From Pseudomonas frederiksbergensis (GTDB lineage Bacteria > Pseudomonadota > Gammaproteobacteria > Pseudomonadales > Pseudomonadaceae): DNA of 64,000 bases. The notes below the pieces were generated by a model, which was not told the origin of the DNA, searched no databases, and saw only the letters and a list, made by a program, of their open reading frames with translations. The position numbers and the translations under genes were made by a program. The stretch covers positions 620,001 through 684,000 of the forward strand of contig NZ_CP142104.1 of the NCBI RefSeq assembly GCF_035751725.1, read 5' to 3'. Positions 25,646-37,437 of this stretch are shown in pieces (within the stretch, counting starts at the first letter, position 1; every line of letters starts with the position of its first letter).

Positions 25646-26539
25646 ATGCGCGCCTTAGCTGAGTTCATCATGCGCGGTCGTATGCAGGCCACTCTGGTAG
25701 TGGCTGGATGCGCGGCATTGCCGTTGTTGTATTGGTTGGGTGCTGCCGCCGGGAGTCTTGTACTCCTGCGGCGCGGATTGAGGGACGCCTTGGGCGTTCT
25801 TGCTCTGGGACTGCTGCCGGCTTTGCTCTGGTGGCTGTATTCCGCGGACCCGCGTGCAGTCATGGTGCTGCTCGGGTCTTCGGCGCTGGCGTTGGTATTG
25901 CGCGCCAGTGAATCCTGGAACCGCGTGCTGCTGGTCAGCATAGCGATAGGCGTGGCGTTTTCAGTGGTGCTCGGGGTGGCTTTTGCGCCCCAGATCGAGA
26001 TGCTGTCGCAGGCTTTGGTAAAAATCCTGCCCGAGGCGCTCGGTGATCTCTACCAGCAGATGTCGGTAGAGGAGCAGGCGCGTTTCGCGTCCCTGATTGC
26101 CCCCGTCCTGACCGGACTGATTGCGGCCTTGTTGCAAATCGTCAGTGTGCTGAGCCTGGTTATCGGGCGCTACTGGCAGGCGTTGTTGTACAACCCGGGT
26201 GGTTTTGGTCGCGAGTTTCGCGCCATCCGCTTCCCGCTTGGGCTGGCGATGTTGCTGTTGGCGGGCATGCTACTGGGGCCGAACTTCGGTCCGCAGATGG
26301 CAATGCTCACGCCGCTGTGCAGCGTACCGCTGGTCTTTGCCGCCCTGGCCCTGATTCACGGGCTGGTGGCGCAAAAGCGACTGGCCAGGTTCTGGCTGGT
26401 GGGGTTGTACGTCACGTTGTTGCTGTTCATGCAGCTGATCTATCCGTTGCTGGTGGTCCTGGCCATCGTCGACAGCCTGATTGATTTTCGCGGTCGTATG
26501 GCGCCGAAAGACGCCGACAGCGCGAACGGTGAAGGTTAA
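25646..26539 (+). CDS. Multi-span membrane protein between rpsR and rplI (DUF2232/YybS-like)
   Basis: 297-residue hydrophobic protein with about eight predicted helices, for example LVVAGCAALPLLYWLGAAAG, AVMVLLGSSALALVLRA and LVGLYVTLLLFMQLIYPLLVVLAIVD, and a short charged C-terminus. The position between rpsR and rplI is fixed in pseudomonads, and this resembles the DUF2232 group, whose function I do not know. The ATG at 25646 follows AAGGGATTGAATGC, a modest binding site. Co-transcription with ribosomal genes suggests a growth-linked role, but this is inference. Confidence 0.8.
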   Translation: MRALAEFIMRGRMQATLVVAGCAALPLLYWLGAAAGSLVLLRRGLRDALGVLALGLLPALLWWLYSADPRAVMVLLGSSALALVLRASESWNRVLLVSIAIGVAFSVVLGVAFAPQIEMLSQALVKILPEALGDLYQQMSVEEQARFASLIAPVLTGLIAALLQIVSVLSLVIGRYWQALLYNPGGFGREFRAIRFPLGLAMLLLAGMLLGPNFGPQMAMLTPLCSVPLVFAALALIHGLVAQKRLARFWLVGLYVTLLLFMQLIYPLLVVLAIVDSLIDFRGRMAPKDADSANGEG

Positions 26540-28519: not shown

Positions 28520-28629
28520 CCCGCTCCCACGGGGGTGCCACCAATTTCCGACCATAGCCGTCGGAATTGATCAAATTTTGTGCTATATTCCGCGCCCGCG
28601 ATTTTTCATCCTTTATACCGGTCATCGAC

Positions 28630-30930
28630 ATGCAAGCAGCCAAGCCGTTATTTGACTATCCCAAGTACTGGGCCGAATGTTTCGGCCCAGCGCCGTTCCT
28701 GCCCATGAGCAGGGAGGAGATGGATCAGCTCGGCTGGGATTCGTGCGACATCATCATCGTCACCGGTGATGCCTACGTCGATCACCCTTCGTTCGGCATG
28801 GCGATCATTGGCCGTCTGCTGGAAGCCCAGGGCTTTCGTGTCGGGATCATCGCCCAGCCGAACTGGCAGTCCAAAGACGACTTCATGAAGCTCGGCGAGC
28901 CCAACCTGTTCTTCGGTGTCGCGGCCGGCAACATGGACTCGATGATCAATCGCTACACCGCCGACAAGAAAATCCGCTCCGATGACGCCTACACCCCCGG
29001 TGGCCTGGCGGGCAAGCGGCCGGACCGTGCGAGCCTGGTCTATAGCCAGCGCTGCAAGGAAGCCTACAAGCACGTGCCGATCGTGCTCGGCGGTATCGAA
29101 GCTTCCCTGCGCCGCATCGCCCATTACGATTACTGGCAGGACCGGGTGCGCAACTCGATCCTGATCGACGCTTGCGCCGACATCCTGCTCTATGGCAACG
29201 CCGAGCGAGCGATTGTCGAAGTCGCGCAGCGCTTGTCCTATGGCCACAAGATCGAAGACATCACCGACGTGCGCGGCACCGCGTTCATCCGCCGTGACAC
29301 GCCGCAAGGCTGGTACGAAGTCGACTCCACGCGCATCGACCGTCCGGGCAAGATCGACAAGATCATCAACCCGTACGTGAATACCCAGGACACCGCAGCC
29401 TGCGCCATCGAGCAGGAAAAGGGTCCGGTTGAAGATCCGGGCGAAGCCAAGGTCGTGCAGATCCTGGCAAGCCCGAAGATGACCCGCGACAAGACCGTGA
29501 TCCGCCTGCCATCGGTAGAAAAGGTGCGCAACGACGCGGTGCTGTATGCCCACGCCAACCGCGTGTTGCACTTGGAAACCAACCCGGGCAACGCCCGTGC
29601 GCTGGTGCAGAAGCACGGTGAAGTCGACGTCTGGTTCAACCCGCCGCCCATTCCGATGACTACTGAAGAAATGGACTACGTGTTTGGCATGCCTTACGCA
29701 CGTGTTCCCCATCCGGCGTACGGCAAGGAGAAGATCCCGGCCTACGAGATGATCCGTTTCTCGGTAAACATCATGCGCGGCTGCTTCGGTGGCTGCACGT
29801 TCTGCTCGATCACCGAGCACGAAGGCCGGATCATCCAGAACCGTTCCGAAGAGTCGATCATTCGCGAGATCGAAGAGATCCGCGACAAGGTCCCGGGCTT
29901 CACCGGGGTCATTTCCGACCTGGGCGGCCCGACCGCGAACATGTATCGCATTGCCTGCAAGAGCCCGGAAATCGAATCCGCGTGCCGCAAGCCGTCCTGC
30001 GTGTTCCCCGGCATCTGCCCGAACCTGAACACCGACCATTCTTCGTTGATCCAGCTGTACCGCAGTGCCCGGGCCTTGCCTGGGGTGAAGAAGATTCTGA
30101 TCGCCTCCGGCCTGCGTTACGACCTGGCGGTCGAGTCGCCGGAATACGTCAAGGAACTGGTGACTCACCACGTCGGCGGTTACCTGAAGATCGCTCCGGA
30201 GCACACCGAGGAAGGCCCGCTCAACCAGATGATGAAGCCGGGCATCGGCAGCTATGACAAGTTCAAGCGGATGTTCGAGAAGTACACCAAGGAAGCCGGG
30301 AAAGAGCAGTACCTGATTCCATACTTCATCGCCGCCCACCCGGGCACCACCGACGAAGACATGATGAACCTGGCGCTGTGGCTCAAGGGCAACGGTTTCC
30401 GGGCCGATCAGGTGCAGGCGTTCTATCCGTCGCCGATGGCTACCGCCACTGCCATGTACCACTCGGGCAAGAACCCGCTGCGCAAGGTCACCTACAAGAG
30501 CGATGGGGTGACCATCGTCAAGAGCGAAGAGCAGCGCCGCCTGCACAAGGCCTTCCTGCGTTATCACGACCCGAAAGGCTGGCCGATGCTGCGCGAAGCG
30601 TTGACCCGCATGGGCCGTGCCGATCTGATCGGGCCGGGCAAGAACCAGTTGATTCCGTTGCACCAGCCTGCAACCGACAGCTACCAGAGCGCCCGTCGCA
30701 AGAACTCGACGCCGGCTGGCAGCCACAAGGTGGGCAAGGAAACCACCAAGATCCTGACCCAGCACACCGGCCTGCCGCCGCGCGCCAGCGACGGTGGCAA
30801 TGCCTGGGACAAGCGCGAGCAAGCCAAGGCTGCCGCGTTCGCCCGCAATCAGAAGGCTGCCAAGGAACGCAAGGACGCGGCGAAGGGCAAGGGGCCGAAG
30901 CCTGCGCGCAAGCCTGTCGTGCCGCGCTGA
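28630..30930 (+). CDS. YgiQ family radical SAM protein
   Basis: 766-residue protein. The N-terminal UPF0313/YgiQ domain begins with [20 protein letters not shown] and [17 protein letters not shown]. The radical SAM cluster motif is [18 protein letters not shown] (C-x3-C-x2-C). The C-terminal region has [21 protein letters not shown], then a lysine/alanine-rich tail (about 690-766). The biochemical role of YgiQ is not established. I start at ATG 28630 (MQAAKPLF). A TGTGCTATATT extended -10 element lies at about 28580-28590. Confidence 0.9.
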
Positions 30931-30978: not shown

Positions 30979-31108
30979 TTTCTAGCGGCGGTGCTGGCCG
31001 TTTGTTATCGTGGCGCCCGCCCGACAGTGCTAGAGGTTATGGGGAGCCCTCGCCACAAGGGTTCAGTGCGGATAAAGATTCACCCTCCGATTCTCAAGGA
31101 CGATTCAT

Positions 31109-32029
31109 ATGAGCACTCCATTACCCGGCATCGGCATGGACTACAGCCCCTCCCAGTTCATGGCCCGCCAACGCATCGGAAGCCAGATCAACCTGCCGCG
31201 CCTGTTCGCTGCCATCGACGCCGATCCCAGTATCGTCGGCGCCGGTGTGGTGTACATCGATGCTGAATTCAATGTAGTGACCCTGCGTGAGTTCAAGCCG
31301 ATCTGCAGCATCAAGCCCAAGCGGATCATTTTGCGCGAGGCGCAGAAATATATTGCGCCGGCTCAGTTTGCTCAGCAGGTTCAGGACAATCCACGGGAAT
31401 CGCGATTGGTCGGCGAAGCGATCAATACTTCCTTGTCGTGTGCAGGGGCCGTTATCGGTTGGGTCGTGGTACTCAGCGGCTCTGTAGCTATCCCATTTTC
31501 AGCAGGGGCAAGCACCGCGATCGCCGTGTTGGGTTATACCGCCGCCGCAGCCAGCACAGCGCAATGTTTTGCGAGCGGTTATCGCATGCGTAATGAAATC
31601 AGTAACCCAGCCCGAAACGATCAGCTCGACAGTGAGGAGTGGTATCAGAACACCATGATTGTGCTGGATGCCGCGGCGTTGGTTGGGGTCGGGGCATCGT
31701 CGCTGACGACTCTCAAACTGGTCAGATTGAATAAAGCTGCCACGGGCAAAAGTGTGAGGGAGGTGCTCCGGGGCCTGAATCGACAGGAGCGAGCCAAACT
31801 GACCAAAGAGTTGCTGACTATCAATGACCCTCGCCTGACCTCCAAACTGCTCAAACTCAAGCAACTGTCTGGCGAGTTACCCAAGCGCTTTACGCCCACT
31901 CAAATCAAGCATGCCACCGTCACACAGATTCGGGATGCCCTGGGTGCCGCCATCGGCTTCACGGGAAGCGCGATTTCCGGGAACGTCCGGACCATTGCAG
32001 TGGGGTTGTACGAGGAGATCGAAGAATGA
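31109..32029 (+). CDS. Cassette protein A, copy 1: unknown protein with central hydrophobic segment
   Basis: 306 residues; no family recognised. Three parts: a soluble N-terminal domain (about 1-95: LPRLFAAIDADPSIVGAG, VVYIDAEFNVVTLREFK, RIILREAQKYIAP), a small-residue-rich hydrophobic stretch (about 105-160: AGAVIGWVVVLSGSVAIPF then GASTAIAVLGYTAAAAS), and a C-terminal part with DAAALVGVGASSLTTLKLV and a basic helical region (NRQERAKLTKELL). There is no signal peptide. It is paralogous to the protein at 32584, very closely in the first 90 residues. It overlaps the next gene by ATGA behind GAGGAG. The glycine-rich hydrophobic core followed by a membrane partner recalls pore-forming effector and immunity pairs, but that is conjecture. 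Confidence 0.85.
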   Translation: MSTPLPGIGMDYSPSQFMARQRIGSQINLPRLFAAIDADPSIVGAGVVYIDAEFNVVTLREFKPICSIKPKRIILREAQKYIAPAQFAQQVQDNPRESRLVGEAINTSLSCAGAVIGWVVVLSGSVAIPFSAGASTAIAVLGYTAAAASTAQCFASGYRMRNEISNPARNDQLDSEEWYQNTMIVLDAAALVGVGASSLTTLKLVRLNKAATGKSVREVLRGLNRQERAKLTKELLTINDPRLTSKLLKLKQLSGELPKRFTPTQIKHATVTQIRDALGAAIGFTGSAISGNVRTIAVGLYEEIEE

Positions 32030-32487
32030 ATGGACAGCCCGGTGTGCGCGTTTTTCTCATCCAATATTTTCCGGTCTTCATGGGCGCGATATTCGCGTCG
32101 GTCTTCGCTCTGGTTTTTGCTGTTCCCCTTTTTTTTGACAGCTATTTTCAAGCCCTTTCGTTGGCGGATAACGCCAAGTGGTCTTTTTTTGGAGGCGTCG
32201 CGCTTACGCTTGTCATCGTGCATTGCAACTTCATGATTGCCCGTGGGCGCCCCGTTTGGGTGTGGCCGATGGTTGCGGTGTTGGGGCTGTGTTTTTTTTG
32301 CGTCCTGCCCACGATCGCTTATCGGCCTGATAGGTTGATTTACAGTTTGAGTTTGCTGTTCCCGTTGCTGGGGTTGCTATTGCTCAACAGCAAACGCCAC
32401 CGCGAGATGCGCAGCAAGCTCGTCGAAATCCGCCACCAGCGCGAGCGTATCCTCCAGTCCGCAAAGACGTCGCGACCGCGCCGCTGA
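32026..32487 (+). CDS. Cassette protein B, copy 1: four-helix membrane protein
   Basis: 153 residues; no family recognised. Four predicted membrane helices (about 9-37, 51-72, 76-99, 104-122), then a basic cytoplasmic-type tail LLLLNSKRHREMRSKLVEI followed by RHQRERILQSAK. The tail is nearly identical in the second copy (33507-33968) while the helices differ much more. It is translationally coupled to protein A, sharing an ATGA overlap, so the two products are probably made in a fixed ratio and act together at the membrane. Confidence 0.85.
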   Translation: MNGQPGVRVFLIQYFPVFMGAIFASVFALVFAVPLFFDSYFQALSLADNAKWSFFGGVALTLVIVHCNFMIARGRPVWVWPMVAVLGLCFFCVLPTIAYRPDRLIYSLSLLFPLLGLLLLNSKRHREMRSKLVEIRHQRERILQSAKTSRPRR

Positions 32488-32583
32488 GTCGATGTAGTCA
32501 GGCTAGAAATCTGAGCTGGCGTAGATGCTTCAGGGCACGGCACAATAAAAAATCAACTCTCCAATTCTTCAAGGACGATTCAT

Positions 32584-33510
32584 ATGAGCAGCGCCGCAAC
32601 AGGCATCGGGATGGACCTGAGCTTTTCCCAGTTCATGGCCCGCAAACGCATCGAAAGCCAAGTCAACCTGCCGCGGCTGTTCGCTGCCATCGATGCCGAT
32701 CCCAACATCGCCGGTGCGGGCGTGGTGTACATCGATTCCGAGTACAACGTGGTGACGCTGCGCGAATTCAAGCCGATTTGCAGCATCGCACCCAAGCGAG
32801 TCATCTTGCGCGAGGCGAAGAAATACATCGCCCCACAGCAATTCATTGACCAGGTAAAAAGCAGTCCGCGTGAGTCAAAGCTCGGGACTGAGTCGATGAA
32901 TGCCGGTTTTTCCTGTGTCGCCGCGGTCATCGGTTGGGTGGTGGTATTCAGTGGGAGCGTCGCTGTGCCCTTTACGGCAGGCGCCAGTGCCTTTGTCGTT
33001 GCCTTGGGCGCCGCTGCCGCGACGGCCAGTACCGCGCAGTGCGTTATTGGTGGGATGCGGGTGGCGAATGAGCTGACCAATCCTACTGGCAACGATGAAA
33101 TGAACGACGCCGATTGGTACAACATCGTGAGCCCCATTCTTGACGGTGTTTCCCTTGTGGGCGTCGGTGGCTCGGCTCTCACGACTGTTCGGCTGCTGAA
33201 GGCCAGTAAGGCAGCGGGCACCGGGAAGAGCTGGTATCAGTTGCTCAAGGGCCTGAGTCGTCAGGAGCGCAGCAAACTGACCAAGGAATTGTTGACCCTG
33301 AAAGATCCGAGTCTTACCGCGAAGCTGCTTAAACTGCAGCAACGAGCGGGTGCCTTGCCCAAGCGTTATTCTTCCGCTGAAATCAGGCACGCTACGCTGA
33401 CTCAGATAAAGGATTCTCTCGGAGGCGCTTTGGGGATCATCGGCAGTTATACCGGCGATGGCGCCGTGAAGACTGTCGCCGTCGGACTGTATGAGGAGTT
33501 CACCGAATGA
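32584..33510 (+). CDS. Cassette protein A, copy 2
   Basis: 308 residues, paralogue of the protein at 31109. Shared blocks are SQFMARKRIESQVNLPRLFA, GAGVVYIDSEYNVVTLREFK, SRQERSKLTKELLTLKDPSL and AVGLYEEF. The hydrophobic core differs (AAVIGWVVVFSGSVAVPF then GASAFVVALGAAAATAS) but keeps its small-residue character. NDADWYNIVSPILDGVSLVG replaces the equivalent region of copy 1. Start ATG 32584 with CAAGGACGATTCAT in front, the same leader as copy 1. It overlaps copy 2 of gene B by ATGA. Confidence 0.85.
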   Translation: MSSAATGIGMDLSFSQFMARKRIESQVNLPRLFAAIDADPNIAGAGVVYIDSEYNVVTLREFKPICSIAPKRVILREAKKYIAPQQFIDQVKSSPRESKLGTESMNAGFSCVAAVIGWVVVFSGSVAVPFTAGASAFVVALGAAAATASTAQCVIGGMRVANELTNPTGNDEMNDADWYNIVSPILDGVSLVGVGGSALTTVRLLKASKAAGTGKSWYQLLKGLSRQERSKLTKELLTLKDPSLTAKLLKLQQRAGALPKRYSSAEIRHATLTQIKDSLGGALGIIGSYTGDGAVKTVAVGLYEEFTE

Positions 33511-33968
33511 TCGGCGGCGGATCAATGAAGCAGTTCCTCGCCCGTTATTTTCCGGTGTTCATGGGCACGATCTTCCTGGGTTGTTTTTCCGGGTCTGCGC
33601 TGCTCGTTTTGTCCGCAGGCACTTATTGGCGTGCCTTGGAGCCTTCCGTCAGGAGCAACTATGTTGGGCTCGGCACGTTGGCTCTGGTGAGTGTCCTGGT
33701 TCTGGGAAATCTCATGATCGCACGCGGACGCGTCTGGGCGATCTGGTGGGTGACGAGTTATTTCCTTGGCTGTCTGGCGGCGGTGTTGCCGACGTTTGCT
33801 TATGGACCGCATCAAGGTGTGTACGTGTTTGCGGTGCTGTTGCCGTTACTGGGACTACTACTGCTCAACAGCAAACGCCACCGGGAAATGCGCAGCAAGC
33901 TCATCGAAATCCGCCACCAACGCGAACGCATCATCCAATCCGCCAAGGCCCCGCGCCCGCGCCATTGA
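33507..33968 (+). CDS. Cassette protein B, copy 2: four-helix membrane protein
   Basis: 153 residues, paralogue of the protein at 32026. It begins in the ATGA overlap with the gene before it, the same arrangement behind GAGGAG as in copy 1; an internal ATG at 33525 (MKQFLARYFPVFMG) is an alternative. The PVFMG motif of helix 1 and the whole C-terminal tail (LLLLNSKRHREMRSKLIEI then RHQRERIIQSAK) are conserved; the loops and helices 2-3 are diverged. After both copies the DNA reads TGAGTCGAT, showing that the duplicated unit extends past the stop codon. Confidence 0.83.
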   Translation: MIGGGSMKQFLARYFPVFMGTIFLGCFSGSALLVLSAGTYWRALEPSVRSNYVGLGTLALVSVLVLGNLMIARGRVWAIWWVTSYFLGCLAAVLPTFAYGPHQGVYVFAVLLPLLGLLLLNSKRHREMRSKLIEIRHQRERIIQSAKAPRPRH

Positions 33969-34143: not shown

Positions 34144-37100
34144 GTGTCGATTCATGTCGCTTTGCACCATGTCACACACTATCGCTACGAGCGCGCTGTC
34201 GAACTCGGTCCGCAGATCGTTCGCCTGCGCCCGGCGCCCCACAGCCGCACGCGCATTCTGTCGTACGCGCTGAAGGTTTCGCCGGAGCAGCACTTCATCA
34301 ACTGGCAACAGGACCCCCAGGGCAATTACCTGGCGCGGTTGGTGTTCCCGGAGAAGACCGATGAGCTGCGGGTTGAGGTCGACTTGGTCGCAGAAATGGC
34401 GGTATTCAACCCGTTCGATTTTTTCCTCGAGCCTTACGCCGAGAAGATCCCGTTCACCTACGCGGCTGACGAAAAACACGAGCTGATGCCCTACCTGGAA
34501 AAGCTCCCGCTGACGCCGAAGTTCAAGGCTTATCTGGACGGCATCGACCGCACACCGTTGCCGGCGGTGGATTTTCTGGTGGCGCTCAACCAGCGCTTGA
34601 GCGAAGACATCAACTACCTGATCCGCATGGAGCCCGGCGTGCAAACGCCAGAGCACACGTTGGAGCACGCGTCCGGTTCCTGCCGCGACTCGGCCTGGCT
34701 GCTGGTGCAACTGTTGCGTCACTTGGGCCTGGCGGCGCGTTTTGTCTCGGGTTACTTGATCCAATTGACCGCTGACGTGAAAAGCCTCGACGGCCCGTCC
34801 GGTACGGAAGTGGATTTCACCGACCTGCATGCCTGGTGCGAAGTCTACTTGCCCGGCGCCGGCTGGATCGGCCTGGATGCGACGTCCGGATTGTTCGCTG
34901 GTGAAGGGCATATCCCCTTGGCGTGTAGTCCGGATCCGTCCTCGGCGGCGCCGATCAGTGGCCTGGTGGAGCCGTGCGAGTGTGAGTTCAGCCACGAAAT
35001 GTCCGTCGAGCGAATCTGGGAAGCGCCACGGGTCACCAAGCCTTACACCGAAGAACAATGGTTGGCGATCCAGGAATTGGGCCGGCAGATCGATGCTGAC
35101 CTGTTGGAAGGTGACGTGCGCCTGACCATGGGCGGTGAACCGACTTTCGTTTCCATTGATGACCCGGACGGCGCCGAGTGGAACACCGCGGCGCTTGGGC
35201 CGGACAAGCGTCGCCTTTCCGCCGAGCTGTTCCAGCGCATGCGCGAGCATTATGCGCCGCAAGGGCTGGTGCATTTCGGCCAGGGCAAGTGGTACCCCGG
35301 CGAGCAATTGCCGCGTTGGTCGCTCAACTGCTATTGGCGGCGAGACGGGGTGCCGATCTGGCAGGACAGCGCCTTGATTGCCGACGAGCAGAAAGACTAC
35401 GACGCCGATGGCGAGTTGGCGGGCCGTTTCCTGGCGAGTGTCGCCGAACGCTTGAAAATTCCCACGCGGTTTGTGTTTCCCGCCTACGAAGACAATTTCC
35501 ATTACCTGTGGCGCGAAGGCACGTTGCCTTCGAATGTGACGGCCGAAGATGCTCGGCTGGAAGAACCGTTGGAGCGGGCGCGGTTGCGCAAGGTTTTCAG
35601 CCAGGGCCTGGGCAAGGTAATCGGCCAGGTCCTGCCGCTGGCCCGGACCGCCAAGGGCGACCAATGGCAAAGCGGGCGCTGGTACTTGCGCGACGATCAC
35701 TGCCGGCTGGTGCCGGGGGATTCGCCCTTGGGCTATCGCTTGCCACTGGCGTCCCAACCGTGGGTGACGGCGGCCGAATATCCGTTCATCCATCCCACCG
35801 ACCCGAACCAGGACTTGCCCGAGTTGCCCGGTACCGAGCAATTGAACCATCACGGCGAGTCGGCGCCGGAGCAGGAACGCGTGCCGAAGATCGACGAATC
35901 GGCCGATTGGCTGACCCGCACCGCCTTCTGCGCCGAGGCCAGGGAAGGGCGGCTGTACCTGTTCATGCCGCCATTGGAGCGGGTCGAGGATTACTTGGAA
36001 CTGGTCAGCGCCATCGAAGCGACGGCGCAGGAACTGAGCTGCCCTGTGTTGTTGGAGGGCTACGAGCCGCCGAGCGACCCGCGCCTGAGCAATTTTCGTA
36101 TCACGCCTGACCCGGGTGTGATCGAGGTCAACGTACAGCCTTCGGCGAGCTGGGAGGAGTTGGTCGAGCGCACTGAATTTCTCTACGAGCAAGCGCGATT
36201 GAACCGGCTGACCACCGAGAAATTCCTGATCGACGGTCGGCACACCGGAACCGGTGGCGGTAACCATTTCGTACTTGGCGGCGCGACACCGGCTGACTCA
36301 CCGTTCCTGCGGCGTCCGGACTTGCTGCGCAGCCTGATCAGCTACTGGCATAACCACCCGTCGTTGTCGTACCTGTTTTCCGGATTGTTCATCGGCCCGA
36401 CCTCCCAGGCGCCGCGGGTGGACGAGGCGCGCAACGACGCGTTGTACGAACTGGAAATCGCCTTCGCGCAAATGCCACAGCCTGGCGAGGAGTGCCTGCC
36501 GTGGTTGGTGGATCGGCTGCTGCGCAACCTGTTGATCGACGTCACCGGCAATACCCATCGCGCCGAGTTCTGCATCGACAAGCTCTACTCGCCGGACGGC
36601 GCCACCGGCCGTCTCGGCTTGCTGGAGCTGCGCGCTTTCGAAATGCCACCCCATGCCCGCATGAGCCTGACCCAGCAATTGCTATTGCGGGCGCTGGTGG
36701 CGCGCTTCTGGCGCGAGCCCTATGCGCCGGCCAAGCTGGCACGCTGGGGCACCGAGCTGCATGATCGTTTCCTGTTGCCGCACTTCATCGAGCAGGATTT
36801 TGCCGAGGTCATCGAAGAGCTCAATGGCGCCGGTTATCCATTGCGTGCCGAGTGGTTCGCCGCGCACCTGGAGTTCCGCTTTCCCAAGGTGGGCGATTAC
36901 GCTGTCAACGGTATCGAGCTACAGCTGCGCCAGGCGCTGGAGCCTTGGCATGTGCTGGGGGAAGAGGGCTCGGCGGGCGGCACGGTGCGTTATGTGGACT
37001 CGTCCCTGGAGCGCTTGCAGATCAAGCTTACGGGGCTGGCGCCGCAACGTTATCTGCTGACCTGCAATGGCGTACCGGTGCCGTTGCAGCCTACCGGCCG

Positions 37101-37437
37101 GGTAGGCGAATTCGTCGCCGGGGTACGTTTCCGCGCCTGGCAACCGTTCAACTGCTTGCAGCCGACCATCCCGGTCCATGCGCCGCTGGTCTTCGATGTG
37201 CTCGATACCTGGATGCAGCGCTCCCTGGGCGGCTGCCAATACCACGTGGCGCATCCGGGCGGGCGCAACTATGACAGCCTGCCGGTGAATGCCAACGAAG
37301 CGGAGAGCCGCCGGATGGCGCGTTTTTTCCGAATTGGGCACACGCCTGGAAAACTGCCGATACCGAGTCTGGCAAGGGATGAAGAGTTTCCGTTCACGCT
37401 CGATCTGCGCCGCTTCCACGGGACATCAAAAAGCTAG
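34144..37437 (+). CDS. Transglutaminase-like / DUF2126 two-domain protein
   Basis: 1097 residues. The N-terminal part has the bacterial transglutaminase N region (HVTHYRYERAVELGPQIVRLRP) and a cysteine-protease-like transglutaminase core with all three catalytic residues: GSCRDSAW (C about 180), DLHAWCEVY (H about 229) and GLDATSG (D about 245). The C-terminal part from about 320 (LTMGGEPTFVSIDDPDG) is DUF2126, a COOH-NH2 ligase-like family. GTG start at 34144 behind CAGGAGGCACGCC. It is followed by an ATP-grasp/alpha-E gene and a second transglutaminase, a cluster predicted to make or modify peptides; the product is unknown. Confidence 0.92.
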   Translation: MSIHVALHHVTHYRYERAVELGPQIVRLRPAPHSRTRILSYALKVSPEQHFINWQQDPQGNYLARLVFPEKTDELRVEVDLVAEMAVFNPFDFFLEPYAEKIPFTYAADEKHELMPYLEKLPLTPKFKAYLDGIDRTPLPAVDFLVALNQRLSEDINYLIRMEPGVQTPEHTLEHASGSCRDSAWLLVQLLRHLGLAARFVSGYLIQLTADVKSLDGPSGTEVDFTDLHAWCEVYLPGAGWIGLDATSGLFAGEGHIPLACSPDPSSAAPISGLVEPCECEFSHEMSVERIWEAPRVTKPYTEEQWLAIQELGRQIDADLLEGDVRLTMGGEPTFVSIDDPDGAEWNTAALGPDKRRLSAELFQRMREHYAPQGLVHFGQGKWYPGEQLPRWSLNCYWRRDGVPIWQDSALIADEQKDYDADGELAGRFLASVAERLKIPTRFVFPAYEDNFHYLWREGTLPSNVTAEDARLEEPLERARLRKVFSQGLGKVIGQVLPLARTAKGDQWQSGRWYLRDDHCRLVPGDSPLGYRLPLASQPWVTAAEYPFIHPTDPNQDLPELPGTEQLNHHGESAPEQERVPKIDESADWLTRTAFCAEAREGRLYLFMPPLERVEDYLELVSAIEATAQELSCPVLLEGYEPPSDPRLSNFRITPDPGVIEVNVQPSASWEELVERTEFLYEQARLNRLTTEKFLIDGRHTGTGGGNHFVLGGATPADSPFLRRPDLLRSLISYWHNHPSLSYLFSGLFIGPTSQAPRVDEARNDALYELEIAFAQMPQPGEECLPWLVDRLLRNLLIDVTGNTHRAEFCIDKLYSPDGATGRLGLLELRAFEMPPHARMSLTQQLLLRALVARFWREPYAPAKLARWGTELHDRFLLPHFIEQDFAEVIEELNGAGYPLRAEWFAAHLEFRFPKVGDYAVNGIELQLRQALEPWHVLGEEGSAGGTVRYVDSSLERLQIKLTGLAPQRYLLTCNGVPVPLQPTGRVGEFVAGVRFRAWQPFNCLQPTIPVHAPLVFDVLDTWMQRSLGGCQYHVAHPGGRNYDSLPVNANEAESRRMARFFRIGHTPGKLPIPSLARDEEFPFTLDLRRFHGTSKS

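Follow-up and report, generated by a model that had tools for sequence, protein, structure and literature searches.

Two different alleles of a predicted Ssp4-type effector and its Sip4-like immunity partner lie side by side at a putative exchange site in Pseudomonas frederiksbergensis

Two A-B units between ygiQ and an amidoligase gene

We analyzed a 64,000-nucleotide stretch of the Pseudomonas frederiksbergensis genome (contig NZ_CP142104.1, positions 620,001 to 684,000; hereafter the window, in which coordinates are counted), where two genes, A and B, are followed by a second, similar pair. The gene order is A1-B1-A2-B2, all four on the + strand with open reading frames: A1 at 31109..32029 (306 residues), B1 at 32026..32487 (153 residues), A2 at 32584..33510 (308 residues), and B2 at 33507..33968 (153 residues, with a further in-frame ATG at 33525). 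In both pairs the start of B overlaps the end of A by 4 bases (ATGA), and the two units start 1,475 bp apart, so the A-B-A-B repeat, the ATGA coupling and the period of about 1.48 kb given in an initial annotation, made from the letters alone, are borne out.

The pairs are bounded on the left by a gene for a YgiQ-type radical SAM protein (28567..30930, + strand; Pfam PF08497, PF04055, PF11842) and on the right by one for a DUF2126 amidoligase / transglutaminase-like protein (34144..37437, + strand; PF09899, PF08379, PF01841). A1 and A2 are identical at 194 of 306 aligned residues (63%), and B1 and B2 at 77 of 153 (50%). Third-position G+C is 0.67-0.69 in A1, A2 and B2, below the 0.78-0.82 of the flanking genes. 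We think it very probable that the two units are different alleles of an antibacterial Ssp4-type effector (A) and a Sip4-type immunity protein (B), set at a fixed exchange site.

A belongs to the Ssp4 family, and B resembles Sip4 by predicted helices

Both A proteins match the whole of NCBIfam model NF053808, the Ssp4 family of type VI secretion system (T6SS) effectors (positions 1-280 of 280), with 393.8 bits for A1 and 363.5 bits for A2 against a cut-off of 300; neither reaches the cut-off of any Pfam model. Since both exceed the same curated cut-off, their likeness is far beyond chance. The initial annotation had recognized no family, yet by this profile A1 and A2 are members of a known family of pore-forming T6SS effectors, and the genes themselves are no discovery. 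Published in 2025, the family is reported in Pseudomonas too (PMC12669606; this and the other cited papers are drawn on in part, and statements from them hold for those parts). Ssp4 of Serratia marcescens Db10 is delivered by the T6SS, is toxic in the periplasm without lysis, forms cation-selective pores, and is neutralized by Sip4, which resides in the inner membrane and is predicted to have four helices. Its homologues are numerous in Pseudomonas, with a small gene downstream and loci often distant from T6SS genes (PMC12669606). When 369 genomes of the class were searched, the window's own included, an Ssp4 match was found in two others, one above the cut-off (G320) and one below (G434).

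B was modeled on B2 with AlphaFold2 from 58 aligned B proteins, B1 among them, at a mean predicted local distance difference test (pLDDT) score of 88.2. The model has helices at 6-39, 46-72, 78-99 and 103-120, then a basic C-terminal helix at 123-147. Helix hydrophobicity was read from the alignment, and the four long helices fit the description of Sip4-type proteins. B is thus predicted to be a four-helix membrane-type protein in Sip4's place. Sip4 itself was found by cysteine labeling to be inserted in the inner membrane with both termini inside (PMC12669606). Outside the genus, a B profile match (E 6e-20) lies beside an Ssp4-family gene in the genome of another bacterial family (L219).

Incidentally, B1 contains a run of 8 T (32129-32136), where the same gene of Pseudomonas frederiksbergensis SI8 (locus L039, 6021-6027) has 7 T and is shifted in frame. 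An error in the draft sequence would account for the difference, as would a slippery tract in the immunity gene.

A and B occur together and vary together

Pairing was examined in two sets of loci, with A taken as a profile match of at least 270 columns and B as one of at least 120. The survey set comprises the best 100 ygiQ matches among 168 genomes of the genus other than the window's, and leans to near kin because best matches were taken. The named set was chosen by similarity to A (80 of the 123 found) and has both boundary genes in 74 of the 80 loci. Because the sets overlap, their counts are not added, except where pooling is stated.

Every A has an adjacent B, in 39 of 39 occupied survey loci and in 80 of 80 named loci. 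Together with the window, this makes 137 of 137 A genes, 100 of them with the 4-base overlap (the pair in L039 is counted although its B1 is frame-shifted relative to the window's), and removal of identical pairs leaves 118 distinct allele pairs. Away from the ygiQ site, pairing was examined in G189, G024, G072 and L219. In the two sets pooled, 43 B entries lack a cognate A, and there is no A without B. That A and B might each be found singly in many genomes had been named beforehand as a sign against a toxin-immunity pair; B does stand alone and A does not, an asymmetry expected of an immunity gene.

Distances between A cores correlate with distances between B residues 1-105 at r = 0.85, which none of 300 permutations reaches, and the correlation is 0.87 when ygiQ distance is held constant. 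Distances of A and of B correlate with that of ygiQ at -0.03 to 0.16. A and B therefore vary together, unrelated to species. Covariation is strongest between A 136-210 and B 37-96. With the overlap, it makes B1 the likely cognate of A1, and B2 likewise that of A2.

The two units as alleles

A maximum-likelihood tree of 118 A proteins places A1 and A2 in different supported clades. Leaving aside L039, which has the same two-pair arrangement as the window, the nearest kin of the A1 core are at L040 and L125 (92%), loci that hold an A1-type pair alone. Those of the A2 core are at L128 (97%) and L118 (96%), which hold an A2-type pair alone. Separate clades and single-pair nearest kin argue that two alleles were joined at one site. 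The initial annotation had spoken of a tandem duplication and of co-duplication, which these placements do not support.

Its remark on unequal divergence was sound. Among positions where both genes encode the same amino acid, identical codons are used at 16 of 18 in A 1-30 and at 21 of 61 in A 91-210. For B1 and B2 the counts are 19 of 27 in B 121-153 and 5 of 16 in B 31-90. The 5′ end of A and the 3′ end of B are thus alike, and the middle parts unlike.

A plain tandem duplication, in which this lineage duplicated a single A-B pair whose copies then diverged quickly, would explain why both units have the same order, overlap and spacing, with similar A 5′ ends and B 3′ ends. The window's B tails, at 19 of 27, also exceed the 46% identical codons found in sampled divergent pairs of different loci, and this unusual likeness leaves room for some homogenization within the locus. 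On the other hand, A1 and A2 are 63% identical, far less than the 92% and 96-97% by which their cores match those of single-pair loci, and they sit in separate supported clades. A recent duplication is ruled out by the tree and the nearest kin, and we regard copying with quick divergence as improbable.

The tree also contains a divergent clade of A (10 entries, about 50% identical to A1), found at L049, L082, L096, L099, L100, L102, L104, L106 and L159 as the second or third A. Its members always lie downstream of another pair, and their leader is of the GGAGTAAAGGG type, with no Rsm motif.

Orphan immunity genes and empty sites

Among the 100 survey loci, 39 have A and B, 60 have neither, and 1 has a weak B-like gene alone. 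Both boundary genes were seen in 50 of the 60 loci without A or B. The amidoligase gene was not found in the fetched stretch at 10 of the 100 loci, all of them among these 60, and one (L186) is cut off by the contig end. Some other empty sites contain up to 5.3 kb of different DNA. The lone B-like gene (L144, 815-1276) is very distant, with 23% identity to the best cognate B, and its site has no A. Two complete A genes occur at 1 of the 100 survey loci, and two or more at 13 of the 80 named loci.

Here ‘orphan’ refers to a B gene without its cognate A. Of the 39 occupied survey loci, 10 carry orphan B genes, as do 26 of the 80 named loci. Pooling both sets places 41 of them downstream of the first intact A, against a single one upstream. 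Their median identity is 85% to the best cognate B elsewhere versus 43.5% to the resident cognate B, and the orphan is closer to the foreign cognate in 33 of 34 comparisons (34 of the 43 entries were compared, as 9 resident pairs were removed as identical or absent). The median ratio of nonsynonymous to synonymous substitution rates (dN/dS) is 0.14 for orphan B genes (n = 28) and 0.15 for cognate B genes (n = 107), as estimated from nearest-cognate pairs with 75-98% DNA identity and dS of 0.02-2, others being dropped. Orphan B genes are thus under purifying selection like cognate ones.

One locus, L111, has an amidoligase 98% identical to that of the window and carries a different A-B pair, behind which stands a B gene with 82-88% identity to B2 but no A2. 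This is the state expected after loss of an old toxin. Remnants of A precede orphan B genes in L103, L105, L158 and L159. At L041/L123, L105, L158 and L159 the orphan B genes stand with pieces of A at several stages of decay, which would make a natural series of toxin loss. The window has two complete pairs and no orphan B. Overall, the stretch bounded by ygiQ and the amidoligase gene appears to be one at which toxins are exchanged and old antidotes retained.

The 5′ end of A as a candidate anchor

When 1,500 of the 5,052 pairs of A genes with divergent cores from different loci were sampled, codons for the same amino acid were identical at 55-71% over A 1-90 versus 35-44% over A 91-306. For ygiQ the same measure is 82%, in the sampled pairs with a readable ygiQ stretch. 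DNA identity of at least 0.90 over A 1-80 together with a core below 0.70 was found in 273 of 5,680 core-divergent pairs, and the reverse pattern, a head below 0.70 with a core of at least 0.90, in 0 of 6,903 pairs. The head, which in the window corresponds to codons 1-85 (31109..31363 in A1 and 32584-32838 in A2, + strand), is therefore shared between otherwise divergent alleles, and it may serve recombination.

A candidate Rsm site over the start of A

A/U-CANGGANG-U/A, the sequence quoted as the RsmA/RsmE site (PMC4353343), covers the ribosome-binding sites of A1 (31094..31103, + strand) and of A2 (32569..32578, + strand). Its core, CANGGANG, is present within 40 bases upstream in 89 of 106 distinct A leaders, compared with an average of 0.69 of 106 after shuffling, and is missing from the remaining 17 over that distance. 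It occurs in none of 34 orphan-B leaders, none of 139 leaders of all B genes, and none of 86 amidoligase leaders. In the window, CANGGANG lies 5-20 bases before an in-frame ATG in 2 of 51 non-overlapping open reading frames, A1 and A2 alone. The stretches around the genome's three TssC genes have it in 1 of 28, 1 of 14 and 1 of 12 frames.

For the 100 A genes that come first in their locus, the motif is within 40 bases of the start in 89, within 60 bases on either side of the start taken in 10 more, and masked in one; in those 10 it is near a start assigned by script, so that its position on the true ribosome-binding site is not established. A match is a candidate and not a proof, because the Shine-Dalgarno sequence shares GGA with the motif. 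With this in mind, A production is probably held back by RsmA/RsmE over the ribosome-binding site. An rsmYZ mutant of P. fluorescens SS101 shows down-regulation of an HSI-I-like T6SS (PMC4353343), and in strain MFE01 GacS is required for T6SS activity (PMC11841057). PflSS101_0554, a predicted Rsm target whose function is given as unknown (PMC4353343), might, by its number, be an A gene.

Secretion system linkage

Three TssC and four Hcp genes are encoded in the window's genome. Across the genus, TssC accompanies an Ssp4 match in 87 of 89 genomes, and it is present in 135 of the 160 genomes that have no such match (Fisher p = 0.0006, counting the window's own genome). For the genomes above the Ssp4 cut-off the figure is 81 of 82; the 7 below it include three very weak long-frame matches (G026, G221, G227). 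As the T6SS is common in the genus, with TssC in 222 of 249 genomes overall, co-presence alone is a weak link.

A more direct link comes from relatives in which A is close to a T6SS cluster. Some 20-21 kb separate A from tssC in at least 20 of the 89 Ssp4-matching genomes. The A-B pair of G189 borders a cluster in which TssM, TssK and TagH exceed their cut-offs, and a PpkA-like Ser/Thr kinase, an ABC ATPase and a protein termed TagR-like score below theirs. A-B pairs next to secretion genes, which the initial annotation had suggested looking for in other genomes, are found in all three relatives fetched, G189, G024 and G072. Relatives of the G189 cluster genes lie in the same order in G024, in G072, and in a cluster of the window's genome at 5.83-5.85 Mb. 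The TssC proteins of G189, G024 and G072 are 93-94% identical to the one at 5.846 Mb in the window's genome, versus 51% and 42-43% to the other two. Within the 40 kb examined, the 5.83-5.85 Mb cluster contains no A or B. The F1-T6SS of P. fluorescens F113, which is compared with H1 of P. aeruginosa, has ppkA and tagRSTQ (PMC7970981). Cluster linkage and TssC identity in the relatives make the H1-like system the likeliest carrier, and delivery is probably by the H1-like T6SS of the window's genome.

Further Ssp4-family copies that neighbor each other away from the ygiQ site were seen in G024 (C23), G101 (C56) and G171 (C1, near 4.25 Mb), those of G024 near the T6SS cluster. Elsewhere in the window, a frame of 297 residues at 25646-26539 has no Pfam match at E ≤ 0.001.

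Discussion

The guess of the initial annotation that A and B are a toxin-immunity pair, A forming pores and B residing in the membrane, is well supported by the Ssp4 family assignment, the published Ssp4/Sip4 pair, strict pairing and covariation. We propose that A enters a rival's inner membrane from the periplasmic side and would form ion-selective pores there, and that B, as a membrane immunity protein, would block its own A in the producer. New A-B alleles would enter the site by recombination anchored in the conserved leader and the 5′ end of A. Older toxins would later disappear, and the B genes that went with them would be retained to shield the cell from kin in which the old toxin persists. 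The window would then represent the state in which both toxins are still intact. RsmA/RsmE on the ribosome-binding site of A would restrain production, and the H1-like T6SS would deliver the product.

Several observations weigh against this reading or parts of it. B reaches the cut-off of no Pfam or NCBIfam model, has only chance-level rows in a sequence search for solved relatives, and gives 0 matches at E ≤ 0.001 in a fold search of the PDB; it is likened to Sip4 by predicted helices and gene position. The AlphaFold2 model of A, from 36 sequences, has a mean pLDDT of 44.1, with helices and with strands at 45-51 and 56-61, all at low confidence, where the predicted fold of the family has 13 helices and one beta-sheet. 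The model is too poor to confirm that fold, and a sequence search of solved structures gave chance-level rows only. As for covariation, other part-by-part correlations between A and B range from 0.41 to 0.59 and likewise stand at 0/300, so that all six reach this level in a permutation that ignores relatedness. Six of the 43 orphan B entries have no cognate relative above 55%.

Recombination and regulation meet objections as well. A B tail that is alike with a divergent front occurs in 5 of 9,834 pairs (0 in reverse), so the B end would be at best a minor anchor, though the window's B tails are alike. Symmetric exchange at both ends, the A head and the B tail, an idea prompted by the B proteins of L094 and L058 (fronts unlike, tails identical), was dropped on this DNA-level count. 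The Rsm motif is absent from the 10 later A genes of the divergent clade and from the T6SS-linked A genes of the 3 relatives examined, and it occurs in 1 of 28 open reading frames surrounding the H1-like cluster of the window's genome. Concerning delivery, no T6SS gene was seen among the seven site-neighboring proteins searched in Pfam, which are part of the window's genes, and two genomes with an Ssp4 match, G091 above the cut-off and G193 below, have no TssC match, possibly from a lost T6SS or a missed gene.

Another explanation is that A and B form a non-toxic membrane complex with a cellular role, and that the Ssp4 name is owed to homology alone. It would fit the lack of a T6SS gene beside the site among those seven neighbors, and the T6SS is common in the genus anyway. 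Yet presence is patchy, alleles are unrelated to species, A is always with B while many B genes are without A, orphan B genes are under purifying selection, and other members of the family are linked to a T6SS cluster. We consider such a complex slightly less probable even than plain duplication. Kinship of A with type III translocators (SipB/SseC) instead of Ssp4, which weak matches might suggest (Pfam SseC, E 0.0055 for A2; PRK15374, E 0.015 for A1), is highly improbable, as PRK15374 scores 14.1 bits and Ssp4 393.8 bits for A1, and low-scoring SipB matches are treated as false positives in the Ssp4 paper (PMC12669606).

The effector-immunity reading places the window's genes near systems already described. 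As in Ssp4-Sip4 of Serratia marcescens Db10, A is in the Ssp4 family and the small downstream gene encodes four predicted long helices, and a Pseudomonas group, often found away from T6SS genes, is part of that paper's account (PMC12669606). Unlike Ssp4-Sip4, two complete alleles are side by side here, and there are orphan B arrays, a fixed ygiQ-amidoligase site, and a candidate Rsm site; the words ‘tandem’ and ‘orphan’ are absent from the main text of PMC12669606. In our literature search, mostly at the level of titles and abstracts, we came across no account of this site, nor of orphan arrays of the Sip4 type or an Rsm site preceding an Ssp4 gene.

In T6SS clusters of Vibrio cholerae, an active effector-immunity pair is followed by downstream immunity genes that resemble those of other strains, and a conserved upstream anchor has been proposed for insertion (Kirchberger 2017, PMC5361080). 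In other genomes with the present site, orphan B genes are likewise downstream of an intact pair and closer to foreign cognates. The Vibrio arrays are in T6SS clusters, whereas the effector here is a small stand-alone protein, no T6SS gene was seen next to it, and what is conserved is the effector gene's leader and 5′ end. The ygiQ-amidoligase site may therefore work like an effector-displacement immunity array without strictly being one. Orphan immunity proteins may also protect against non-self effectors in the exchangeable Rhs NADase effectors of Serratia (PMC10539506), which are Rhs enzymes, unlike the small pore formers here.

We lean, somewhat tentatively, to a more specific picture, in which the site is a dedicated exchange address for stand-alone, Rsm-gated pore formers. 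The leader and toxin 5′ end would be a portable recombination handle, alleles would cross species, and kept B genes would be a heritable record of toxins. The window would be a midway stage, holding two live toxins of which one is still to be lost.

The covariation of A 136-210 with B 37-96 points to a possible seat of the specificity of immunity toward the pore former. The value of the finding is in the site itself, one address with 118 distinct allele pairs, which is seen empty, with one pair, with two, and with orphan immunity genes. Such a series of sites lends itself to tests of how alleles of the effector are exchanged and of whether the retained immunity genes are protective.

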